Translations under genes and position numbers: made by a program | Origin: Clostridia bacterium | Lineage (GTDB): Bacteria; Bacillota; Clostridia; Peptostreptococcales; Acidaminobacteraceae | DNA: 64,000 nucleotides | Reading direction: 5' to 3' | Assembly (NCBI GenBank): GCA_018399635.1 | Contig: JAGYOH010000011.1 | Coordinates: 1 to 64,000 of the forward strand | Notes under the pieces: model-generated | Seen by the model: the letters and a program-made list of their open reading frames with translations, nothing else | What the model was told of the DNA's origin: nothing | The model's database searches: none | Part shown: piece by piece, positions 12,281-21,247 of the stretch | Position numbering within the stretch: position 1 is the stretch's first letter | Layout: every line of letters starts with the position of its first letter

Positions 12281-12329
12281 AGATAGAAGCGATTGGGACT
12301 GAACAGTCAATGGGAAGGAGGTTGCTTGA

Positions 12330-12478
12330 AGCGCCAGAACTGCCCGGGCGGCAGTTGACGAGGATGAGGTTTATCGAAAATTCGGCGGATGCCTCACGGC
12401 CCCCCTTGGTCGTCAAGGATGGACAAAACCGGGAAGTGATTTCCGGGACAAAATCCCTCCGATAAAGGGCTCGGTCCA
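12330..12478 (+). ncRNA. glmS ribozyme (GlcN6P-activated self-cleaving riboswitch)
   Basis: The leader of glmS carries the conserved core: AAGCGCCAGAACTG at 12329-12342 with the cleavage site before the G at ~12331, then CAGTTGACGAGGATGAGG (12352-12369), TTTATCGAAAATTCGGCGG and ATGCCTCACGGC, which build the double pseudoknot. A downstream P3-like stem CCGGGAA/TTCCCGG follows at about 12429-12446. When glucosamine-6-phosphate is abundant it acts as cofactor for cleavage, and the downstream mRNA is degraded. Confidence 0.93.
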
Positions 12479-17614: not shown

Positions 17615-18880
17615 ATGAGGGACAAACGGTTTTTATACGGACTCCTGGTGGTCAACATCAGCTCCCTGCTGTATTTTGACATCCTCATCGCGGATTTCAG
17701 GATCACCTTCGCCATCATCACCATGGGGGCCTTCCTGTATCTCTACCGACGACCCAATCCGGTCTTGACCGGTGTGGTGGTGGGGATCACCATCTACCTC
17801 CTTCAACTGATTTTCGTCATCGTCAGGGGGGGATCCCTGGAGAACATGGGCTACGGCTTCATCCCGGAGATTTTCTTTTATGTGGTCTATGCCATCATCT
17901 TCTATTTCGGCATCTACAAACCGCGGACGGAGGATCTCGAGAAGATGTTCCTCATCGCCGTCACCGGGGATTTTTCCGCCAATTTTTTCGAGGTCGTCCT
18001 CCGGATCAATTTTTTCCATCAGGATTTTCTGCCCTCTCAGTTTTTCATCCTCTTTCTAGTGGCCCTGGTACGCAGTCTGATTCTGGTCCTGATTCTCAAG
18101 GGCGCCCGGCTTTACCGCCTGCTCCTCTTGAAGGAGGAGCACGAGAGCCGATACCAGAGGCTGCTGCACATGATCATGCTCCTGAAGGATGAGATGTACT
18201 GGCTGGAAAAAAACAAGGCCAAGATTGAAGAGAGCATGACGGAAGCCTATCAGCTTTTCGAGTGGCTCAAGGATTCGGGGCGGCCGGAGCTTGCCCGGAA
18301 GGCCCTTCGGGTCGCCAGCGATGTCCATGAAATCAAAAAGGAATATGACCTGTTGACGAGGGGATTCAAAGAAGTGACCGACGAGAGCCTTGAGGTGAAC
18401 CAGATGAAGTTCTCTCATATGCTCAAAATCCTCAAGAACACCATGAACTACGAGATCGGCGACCTCGACATCGTCATTGACCTTGAGTACGCCTATTCGG
18501 AGGACTTCACCACGGCCCGTCACTATGAACTGATGTCCGTCCTCCGCAATCTGATTTCCAACAGCATCGACGCCCTGGAGGGGATCAAAAACGGCAGAAT
18601 TCAGGTGGCCCATCGGAAGGTCGAGGGCCGGCATCATTTCCTGGTCAGCGACAACGGTGCCGGCATCGATGCCCGCAGGCTCAAGGAGATTTTCAGCGCG
18701 GGCTATTCTACGAAAATCGATTACGCCTCAGGTGAAATCAACCGGGGACTGGGCCTGAGTCTGGTCAAGGAAATCGTTGAAAAGCGGCTGAGGGGCACCA
18801 TTGCGGCTTCTTCGGAAAAGGGCGGGGGGGCCCGGTTTGAAGTGATCATCAGAAGTGAAGATATCGAGGTGGAAAAATGA
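17615..18880 (+). CDS. Sensor histidine kinase, GlnK (YcbA)-like
   Basis: 421 aa. Five to six N-terminal transmembrane segments (about residues 5-185) act as sensor, followed by a coiled-coil dimerisation region with a probable phospho-acceptor His238 (DVHEIKKEYD) and a GHKL ATPase domain with N-box NLISNSIDALEG (about 312-323), DNGAGIDARR and GLGLSLVKEIVE. The layout and the adjacent YcbB-type regulator and AGCS symporter match the B. subtilis GlnK-GlnL system, which responds to glutamine. The ligand here is inferred from that neighbourhood. It overlaps the regulator by 4 bases. Confidence 0.87.
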   Translation: MRDKRFLYGLLVVNISSLLYFDILIADFRITFAIITMGAFLYLYRRPNPVLTGVVVGITIYLLQLIFVIVRGGSLENMGYGFIPEIFFYVVYAIIFYFGIYKPRTEDLEKMFLIAVTGDFSANFFEVVLRINFFHQDFLPSQFFILFLVALVRSLILVLILKGARLYRLLLLKEEHESRYQRLLHMIMLLKDEMYWLEKNKAKIEESMTEAYQLFEWLKDSGRPELARKALRVASDVHEIKKEYDLLTRGFKEVTDESLEVNQMKFSHMLKILKNTMNYEIGDLDIVIDLEYAYSEDFTTARHYELMSVLRNLISNSIDALEGIKNGRIQVAHRKVEGRHHFLVSDNGAGIDARRLKEIFSAGYSTKIDYASGEINRGLGLSLVKEIVEKRLRGTIAASSEKGGGARFEVIIRSEDIEVEK

Positions 18881-19704
18881 AGATCTATATCGTTGACGAT
18901 GACAACAACATCACGAGAATCCTGGAGCAGATCATCACCGACAAGCGGATCGGCAATATCGTCGGCATCACCAATGATTCCCAGAAGGCCATCGATGAAA
19001 TCAGGAGTCTCAACCCGGATATCGTCATTGTGGATCTTTTGATGCCCCATGTGGACGGCATCGGCCTTATCGAAGAAATCACCGCCTACAATGAGCAAAT
19101 CAAGATTCTGATGATTTCCCAGGTGACTTCCAAGGAAATGATCACCAAGGCCTATGAGAAGGGGGCCTCCTTTTACATCAACAAACCCATCAATGCCGTG
19201 GAGGTGCTCAATGTTCTGGCGGAGATCGTCAACTACATGGAGGCGGACAAGCGGCTGAAAATCATCCGGAACGTCTTCGATTTCCAGGGGATGGAGGCCC
19301 TGGACAGCGATACCATGATGGACCAGATCAGCGGGGTTCTGAAGAAGATCGGCATCGTGAGAAGCGCGGCCTCGGAGGAAATCTACAAGGTGGTGTCCTA
19401 CATGGTGACCCATCCTTCTGAGGTGCGGGAACTCTCCGTCAAGGAAATCTGCCAGGTATTCACCCCAAACCCCAAAATCCTGGAACAGAAGATTCGAAGG
19501 GCGGCTTCCATGGGACTGGAAAATCTCTCCTATCTGGGGGTCGAGGACAATCTCAACGAGGTTTTTCTGGAATATGCCAATACCCTCTACCATTTCAAAG
19601 AGGTGAAGAAGGAGATGGATTTCATCCGGGGACATTCCGGGGACCGGGGCAAGGTGAACCTGCGCAAATTTTTGGAGGGGCTGACCTATTACGTCCGGCT
19701 GTAG
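18877..19704 (+). CDS. Response regulator with YcbB/GlnL-type DNA-binding domain
   Basis: 275 aa. Receiver domain (residues 1 to ~120) with acidic pocket DDD at 7-9, phospho-acceptor Asp53 (IVIVDLLMPHVDG) and Lys near 103 (INKPIN). The C-terminal half contains a helical domain ending in FLEGLTYYVRL, typical of the YcbB/GlnL family. It overlaps its kinase and lies directly before the AGCS symporter gene, whose upstream region holds a 6-4-6 direct repeat like the GlnL box layout. It probably controls that symporter (inference). Confidence 0.88.
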   Translation: MKIYIVDDDNNITRILEQIITDKRIGNIVGITNDSQKAIDEIRSLNPDIVIVDLLMPHVDGIGLIEEITAYNEQIKILMISQVTSKEMITKAYEKGASFYINKPINAVEVLNVLAEIVNYMEADKRLKIIRNVFDFQGMEALDSDTMMDQISGVLKKIGIVRSAASEEIYKVVSYMVTHPSEVRELSVKEICQVFTPNPKILEQKIRRAASMGLENLSYLGVEDNLNEVFLEYANTLYHFKEVKKEMDFIRGHSGDRGKVNLRKFLEGLTYYVRL

Positions 19705-19724
19705 GATACTTTCGTTATACATAG

Positions 19725-19740
19725 TGAAACTTTTTGAAAC
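19725..19740 (+). promoter_or_regulatory. Direct repeat TGAAAC-N4-TGAAAC, candidate response-regulator site
   Basis: Two TGAAAC copies (19725-19730, 19735-19740) are spaced by TTTT, one helical turn centre to centre. B. subtilis GlnL binds a 6-N4-6 direct repeat of a different hexamer, so the spacing, not the sequence, is what matches. It lies 56 bases before the symporter start. Confidence 0.45.
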
Positions 19741-19743
19741 CCG

Positions 19744-19794
19744 CCCTTTAGAATAAAGGTGTAACGTGTACTTATTCTAAAGGGGGTTTTTTTT
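19744..19794 (+). promoter_or_regulatory. Terminator-like hairpin over the symporter ribosome-binding site (attenuator or operon terminator)
   Basis: A perfect 13-bp stem CCCTTTAGAATAA (19744-19756) / TTATTCTAAAGGG (19772-19784) with a 15-base loop is followed by GG and eight Ts ending one base before the symporter ATG. The 3' arm contains the AAAGGGGG ribosome-binding site. So it has terminator shape, and when folded it would also hide the translation start. Confidence 0.75.
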
Positions 19795-19795
19795 A

Positions 19796-21187
19796 ATGGA
19801 TGCATTGATGAATCTGATCGGCGCGGTCAACAGCTTCGCCTGGGGCGGCATCATGATCTTCTTCCTGGTCGGAACGGGAATCGTGCTGACCTTCGGAACC
19901 AGAGTGGTGCAGTACAGGAAAATAGGCTATGCCTTCAAGCTGCTCTTCTCCAAGTCGGAAAGCGATGATGGAGACATCACGCCTTTCCAGGCGCTGATGA
20001 CCTCATTGGCGGCAACCATCGGCACAGGCAACATCGCCGGTGTGGCCGGCGCCATCGCAGCGGGCGGTCCTGGAGCGGTTTTCTGGATGTGGGTCACCGC
20101 GGCCTTTGGCGGCGCCACGAAATTCGCAGAGGCCTTCCTGGCCATCAAGTACCGGGTCACCAATGAAAAGGGTGAAAAATCAGGCGGACCCATGTACTAC
20201 ATCAAGAAGGGCATGGAAGAAACCTACGGCGGCAGCTGGGGCTGGTTGGGATGGCTCTTCGCCTTCTTCGCCACCATCGCGGCCTTCGGTATCGGGAACA
20301 TGGTTCAATCGAATTCCGTAGCGGCTTCAGTCGAGTCTTCCATCGGCCTTTCGCCCTACATCACTGGAGCCATCATCGCAGTGGCTACCGGGGCGGTCAT
20401 CCTCGGCGGCATCAAATCCATCGGCAAGGCAGCGGAAAAAATTGTTCCCGCCATGGCAGTGATCTACGTGGCTGGTGCACTTTTCATCATTTTCAGCAAT
20501 TTTTCAGGAGTCCCCGGTGTCTTTGACATGATTTTCAGCAATGCTTTCAATGCCAAGGCAGTGGGCGGCGGCTTGCTGGGAACCGTCATTCGTTTTGGTG
20601 TGGCACGGGGGGTCTTCTCCAATGAAGCCGGTCTAGGCTCGGCGCCGATCGCCCATGCGGCCTCTAAAACCAACGATCCTGTCAAGCAGGGCATGATTGC
20701 TTCCCTGGGAGCATTCCTGGATACCATCGTGGTTTGTACCATGACGGCCCTGGTCATCCTGCTTTCCGGTTACGTCACCATCGATGCAGGCACCGGTCTG
20801 ATGTCGATCAAAGACGGTCTGGGCGGTGCGGCTCTGACGACCCAGGCCTTCGATTCGGCCTTCCCGGGAGTCGGGGGATTCATCGTGACCTTCGGCCTCA
20901 TCTTCTTCGCCTTCTCGACGATTCTGGGCTGGTACTACTACGGCTCGAAATCCCTGGAGTACATCGCCGGCGTGAAAGCGGTGGAGTACTACAAATACAT
21001 CTGGGTGGCTCTGGCCTTCTTCGGCGCCATCTACAAGGTGGACCTGGTATGGTCCTTGTCGGATACCTTCAACGGTCTGATGGCCATCCCCAACCTGATC
21101 GGCCTGCTGGCCCTGAGTCCTGTCATCTTCAAGCTGCTCAAGCAGGATGAGATCAAGAGCAAGGAAAAAGAGAAGAAAATGGCCTAA
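19796..21187 (+). CDS. Sodium:alanine/glycine/glutamine symporter, AGCS family
   Basis: 463 aa with about 10-11 transmembrane segments. Family motifs include TFGTRVVQYRKIGYAFK, TSLAATIGTGNIAGVAGAIAAGG, GGPMYYIKKGMEETYGG and the FSNEAGLGSAPIAHAA block near residue 275. Takes up small neutral amino acids with sodium. Its place behind a GlnK/GlnL-like system parallels B. subtilis glnT, suggesting glutamine or alanine as substrate. Expression is probably also set by the hairpin that covers its ribosome-binding site. Confidence 0.93.
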   Translation: MDALMNLIGAVNSFAWGGIMIFFLVGTGIVLTFGTRVVQYRKIGYAFKLLFSKSESDDGDITPFQALMTSLAATIGTGNIAGVAGAIAAGGPGAVFWMWVTAAFGGATKFAEAFLAIKYRVTNEKGEKSGGPMYYIKKGMEETYGGSWGWLGWLFAFFATIAAFGIGNMVQSNSVAASVESSIGLSPYITGAIIAVATGAVILGGIKSIGKAAEKIVPAMAVIYVAGALFIIFSNFSGVPGVFDMIFSNAFNAKAVGGGLLGTVIRFGVARGVFSNEAGLGSAPIAHAASKTNDPVKQGMIASLGAFLDTIVVCTMTALVILLSGYVTIDAGTGLMSIKDGLGGAALTTQAFDSAFPGVGGFIVTFGLIFFAFSTILGWYYYGSKSLEYIAGVKAVEYYKYIWVALAFFGAIYKVDLVWSLSDTFNGLMAIPNLIGLLALSPVIFKLLKQDEIKSKEKEKKMA

Positions 21188-21215: not shown

Positions 21216-21247
21216 AAAGGAGCATATCGAATTCGATATGCTCCTTT
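21216..21247. terminator. Bidirectional terminator between convergent genes
   Basis: Perfect 32-bp palindrome centred on an EcoRI-like GAATTC, with AAAGGAGCATATCG and its complement as arms. A T-run follows on the minus strand (five As at 21214-21218 on plus) and a shorter one on plus. It serves the symporter and the SEC-C gene. Confidence 0.85.

Follow-up and report, generated by a model that had tools for sequence, protein, structure and literature searches.

The AGCS symporter gene described here probably has an activator-dependent promoter of its own, and this promoter would lie inside a dyad that would terminate the transcript of the preceding glnKL genes and insulate the symporter from it. 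We regard the overlap of a terminator with an activator-dependent promoter as real: the parts are ordinary, and it is their arrangement that is unusual. The stretch of DNA that we analyzed, 64,000 nucleotides in all, is referred to below as the window, and its relevant features are the following.

17615–18880, + strand: glnK-type sensor kinase (HATPase_c/GHKL), overlapping the start of the regulator gene
18877–19704, + strand: GlnL-type response regulator, receiver and YcbB domain (PF08664, 93 bits)
19725–19740, + strand: tandem repeat TGAAACTTTTTGAAAC, i.e., TGAAAC-N4-TGAAAC, putative GlnL box at about −37 to −21, conserved in 14 loci
19744–19756, + strand: hairpin 5′ arm, sequence CCCTTTAGAATAA
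19749–19754, + strand: putative −10 hexamer TAGAAT, 8 bp past the second repeat and within the 5′ arm
19757–19771, + strand: hairpin loop, 15 nt
19761–19764, + strand: predicted transcription start region, in the loop, 7–10 nt past the −10 hexamer
19772–19784, + strand: hairpin 3′ arm, sequence TTATTCTAAAGGG
19779–19786, + strand: ribosome-binding site (RBS) AAAGGGGG, 9 nt ahead of the ATG, with a G run conserved in relatives
19787–19794, + strand: T8 tract of the terminator-shaped element, without counterpart in the congener
19796–21187, + strand: AGCS sodium:amino-acid symporter (PF01235, TIGR00835)

The gene beside the repeat had been described as a GlnL-type regulator, and the receiver-YcbB gene at 18877–19704 bears this out. 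PF00072 and PF08664 both score above cut-off in the regulator and HATPase_c is found in the neighboring kinase, giving the receiver-YcbB regulator adjoining a GHKL-type kinase that is typical of a GlnL-type (YcbB) system. The symporter is probably a glutamine/alanine carrier, and its start at 19796 is backed by ATGGAYGC, which is kept in relatives. Beyond the symporter, between it and a convergent SEC-C gene, is a perfect 14-bp palindrome (21216–21247) that is terminator-like on the − strand.

The hairpin is as the preliminary description had it, with a perfect 13-bp stem between the arms at 19744–19756 and 19772–19784, a T8 tract ending at 19794, the ATG at 19796, and an RBS that overlaps the 3′ arm. 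Outside the stem there is extra imperfect pairing of AAACCCG with GGTTT. The stable stem and the T tract immediately behind it are the marks of an intrinsic terminator. The fold of 19705–19820 has an energy of −27.8 kcal/mol (z −2.9), equaled by 1 of 200 shuffles. For a perfect stem of at least 13 bp with a loop of at most 20 nt and a tail rich in T, shuffling the window predicts 0.017 occurrences per 64 kb. When the promoter side was kept and the downstream side shuffled, a tailed duplex as strong appeared in 3 of 1000 shuffles. The hairpin is present in single copy in the 2.36-Mb genome and is not a repeated element.

Just upstream of the hairpin, at 19725–19740, lies the 6-N4-6 direct repeat that had been noted there. 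When the 91-nt gap that separates the regulator and symporter genes is shuffled, an exact repeat of this form appears 2% of the time; its conservation in relatives (see below) makes clear that it is real. TAGAAT matches the −10 consensus at 5 of 6 positions, the hexamer of the congener at 4 of 6, and we found no TTGACA-like −35 hexamer at the usual distance from TAGAAT and no sigma-70 promoter further upstream in the gap. The repeat covers the −35 region where a −35 hexamer is lacking, as expected for an activator-dependent promoter. Because the −10 hexamer is inside the 5′ arm, the symporter RNA should start in the loop, at 19761–19764, with a leader of ~33–35 nt that includes the RBS and lacks the 5′ arm. 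The preliminary description held that polymerase from any upstream promoter must pass through the hairpin, which overlooks a promoter inside the hairpin itself, with its conserved −10 hexamer in the 5′ arm. With a start in the loop, the symporter can be expressed without polymerase ever passing the hairpin, which resolves the paradox.

To see what is conserved, we compared 14 loci with the gene order kinase, YcbB regulator, AGCS symporter, in which the regulators are 35–83% identical. L003 and L032 are an identical congener sequence and were counted once; the L032 record is titled 'delta proteobacterium ML8_F1', its genes are closest to Clostridia, and it is probably a mislabeled metagenome-assembled genome. 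In all 14 loci the gap has the same order, with tandem [TC]G[AT]A[AG] repeats of 10-bp period (two or three copies per locus) followed by a −10-like hexamer 8 bp past the last six-base repeat, so a direct repeat of 10-bp period sits at the target promoter, as in a GlnL-type system. The −10 hexamer is TATAAT in L007, L008, and L033–L035 and TATACT, TACAAT, TAGACT, or TAACAT in other relatives. When the spacing was scored mechanically, the best −10 match was at 8 bp in the eight closest loci, some of them tied, and at 18 bp (8 + 10, one extra repeat) in L010, L011, L030, and L033, tied in the first three of these. L034 and L035 are divergent and mechanical scoring failed for them, so their −10 hexamers were assigned by eye and with the degenerate pattern.

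The degenerate repeat and −10 pattern matches once per AGCS-linked locus and nowhere else on either strand of L001–L044, loci without a symporter included; roughly one match would be expected by chance. Since the loci counted are also those that supplied the pattern, this is a description and not an independent test. A stricter, exact pattern gave 5 matches in 41 genomes of the family, 4 of them at glnKL-AGCS loci, with 1 match for the reversed control. A stricter pattern searched across the order gave 5 matches among 394 genomes; a single genome accounts for two of these, one being the known locus. A family genome also has a lone occurrence of the repeat and −10 pattern, at G027:C1:29157-29186 (L061). 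The RBS is conserved as AAGGGGG in 5 of 5 sequences of the nearest group.

The hairpin behaves differently in the comparison of GlnKL-linked AGCS leaders that the preliminary description proposed: the repeat is kept in 14 of 14 loci, but the nearest relatives do not preserve the hairpin. The congener retains part of the arms (8 bp) and has lost the T tract, and no stem was seen in G003, G004, or G023. Across the relatives 62% of stem cells are paired, no measure of conserved structure exceeds what shuffles give, the stem has no covariation support, and the consensus fold is near zero in energy and differs from the hairpin. By these sequences the terminator shape is species-specific within the genus, and the hairpin could be incidental. 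In two relatives, L010 and L011, glnL is separated from the promoter by an ordinary terminator, which indicates that separate transcription units occur among them. L007 and L008 belong to another family; their promoter and start are enclosed by pairing arms with a T-rich stretch behind them, and a tailed duplex as strong was found in 9 of 1000 and 0 of 1000 shuffles, respectively. This suggests that the overlap of promoter and terminator arose more than once, though L007 and L008 are related to each other. The AAAGGGGG run is kept in the gap of L007 and L008, although both use another ribosome-binding site. We infer the terminator role of the hairpin from one to three such examples.

Next, we considered the regulator. 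Receiver domains dominated the fold search with the whole model, EutV ranking first in Foldseek, so a separate model of the YcbB output domain was built from 29 sequences (pLDDT 93.8). In VIA this model has just two clear matches, the free and the DNA-bound form of the Spo0A trans-activation domain, with Z 11.4 (2.7 Å, 108 residues) and 11.2 (2.7 Å, 103), the next entry having Z 4.1; among helical domains, Z values around 11 suggest a relationship and do not prove it. Foldseek places Spo0A chains in the first six positions, at weak E-values of 0.11 and worse. The model thus suggests a structural kinship between the YcbB output domain (19300–19701) and the DNA-binding domain of Spo0A. The two are in different Pfam families, YcbB and Spo0A_C; the structural match has only 12–14% identity, and no sequence match linking YcbB (PF08664) with Spo0A was found. 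Spo0A binds tandem boxes of 10-bp period near the −35 region of sigma-A promoters, a likeness to the tandem sites here that extends beyond the predicted fold. The sites of L034 and L035 resemble Spo0A boxes, and the L034 repeats contain TTTGTCGAAG, which includes the Spo0A box. No ANTAR domain was found in the output part of the regulator, which yields the YcbB domain only, and the reading as an ANTAR protein was rejected, the output model matching the Spo0A DNA-binding domain. With a Spo0A-like output fold, control of the symporter is most likely at the level of DNA and not of RNA.

The explanation that we favor builds on what was seen directly, namely the anatomy of the region, the conservation of the repeat, −10 hexamer, and RBS, and the predicted Spo0A-like fold; the start site, binding, activation, and termination are what it adds. 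The symporter would have its own promoter, activated by the product of the GlnL-type regulator gene that precedes it. In its phosphorylated form this protein would occupy the 10-bp-period repeats at 19725–19740 in place of a −35 box and recruit sigma-A polymerase to the −10 hexamer TAGAAT at 19749–19754. The RNA would begin in the dyad loop with the RBS present and the 5′ arm absent, and its translation would need no leader switch. Both arms would be copied only by polymerase coming through from glnKL, so that the hairpin could form in read-through RNA alone, as an intrinsic terminator with a U8 end and a paired RBS. The dyad would in this way end the kinase-regulator transcript and insulate the symporter from read-through, making its expression dependent on the activator. 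RNA folding gives the RBS an unpaired probability of 0.11 in the read-through RNA versus 0.42 in the loop-started RNA, but the loop-started leader can also pair around the ATG, which counts against the promoter model.

The promoter could be as proposed while the dyad is a terminator that does not work, the strand of the RBS, TTATTCTAAAGGGGG, complementing the −10 region by chance and the T tract being chance as well. The 8-bp arms and missing T tract of the congener, the distant relatives with neither, and the stem's lack of covariation are what this would predict; we nevertheless think it improbable, since 13 perfect base pairs plus T8 are rare both per 64 kb and with the promoter held fixed, and a similar T-tailed arrangement recurs in two genomes of another family. 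It is hardly credible that the dyad is instead a DNA operator for a second regulator, flanking the start site. Its 13-bp arms are centered near the predicted start, but the dyad is unconserved and single-copy, and T8 suits a terminator better.

Two-layer control, by regulator binding plus attenuation or antitermination, had been proposed at the outset. Its first layer is well supported by the repeat, present at 14 of 14 AGCS-linked loci and at none without the symporter, but attenuation at the symporter hairpin is unlikely. In shape, the hairpin with its U tract and overlapping RBS would suit a ligand or protein that decides termination or RBS release on an RNA started upstream, yet we give this very little chance: the conserved −10 hexamer is within the 5′ arm, the hairpin is unconserved, no competing antiterminator was seen, no Rfam leader is present at the locus, no promoter-like site was found upstream in the gap, and the output fold of the regulator resembles Spo0A rather than ANTAR. 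A riboswitch or other known leader was rejected, as the Rfam search of the window returned only a glmS ribozyme elsewhere, an ordinary one (RF00234, 106.6 bits) at 12319–12470 between glmM-like and glmS genes. The preliminary description also named, as its alternative, a hairpin serving only as terminator of the kinase-regulator operon. This is the better reading of the hairpin, except that the mRNA would not be leaderless, its start being expected at 19761–19764; the interval of 19785–19796 named for such a start was too narrow, as any start in the loop removes the puzzle.

The closest known system is the control of glsA-glnT by GlnK-GlnL in B. subtilis, where Satomura in 2005 reportedly found a repeat TTTTGTN4TTTTGT with a footprint from −56 to −13. 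The two share a two-component pair with a YcbB-domain regulator, an AGCS target, and a 6-N4-6 direct repeat overlapping the −35 region. Unlike in B. subtilis, the symporter gene here immediately follows the pair, the repeat unit reads TGAAAC, and a terminator-shaped dyad encloses the promoter. Induction of B. subtilis glnT by glutamine occurs through GlnK-GlnL (PMC2743287). Like the intrinsic terminator of an upstream operon, the element has a stable stem and T8 right after the operon, but its 15-nt loop is long, its 5′ arm holds the −10 hexamer of the next gene, and its 3′ arm holds the RBS of that gene. With attenuators (leader terminators, ANTAR targets, riboswitches) it has in common a hairpin of terminator shape that immediately precedes a gene and whose 3′ arm includes the RBS; the difference is that transcription of the symporter itself should begin within that hairpin. 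We found no direct precedent for a promoter inside a terminator in the literature searched, which does not show that none exists.

It is possible, though doubtful, that the promoter within the terminator is a selected design that arose at least twice at glnKL-AGCS loci, in which output is set by where the polymerase comes from and a released polymerase might slide back and restart at the dyad promoter. The last step is modeled on in vitro work with E. coli in which polymerase was recycled from terminators to promoters close by (PMC6978380), and its relevance here is speculation. A hairpin that abuts a start codon, and is easily annotated as a riboswitch-like attenuator, can be the terminator of the upstream operon sharing its DNA with a promoter. 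The comparison also provides a testable rule for clostridial GlnL sites: TGAAAC-type repeats with a 10-bp period, 8 bp from the −10 hexamer.
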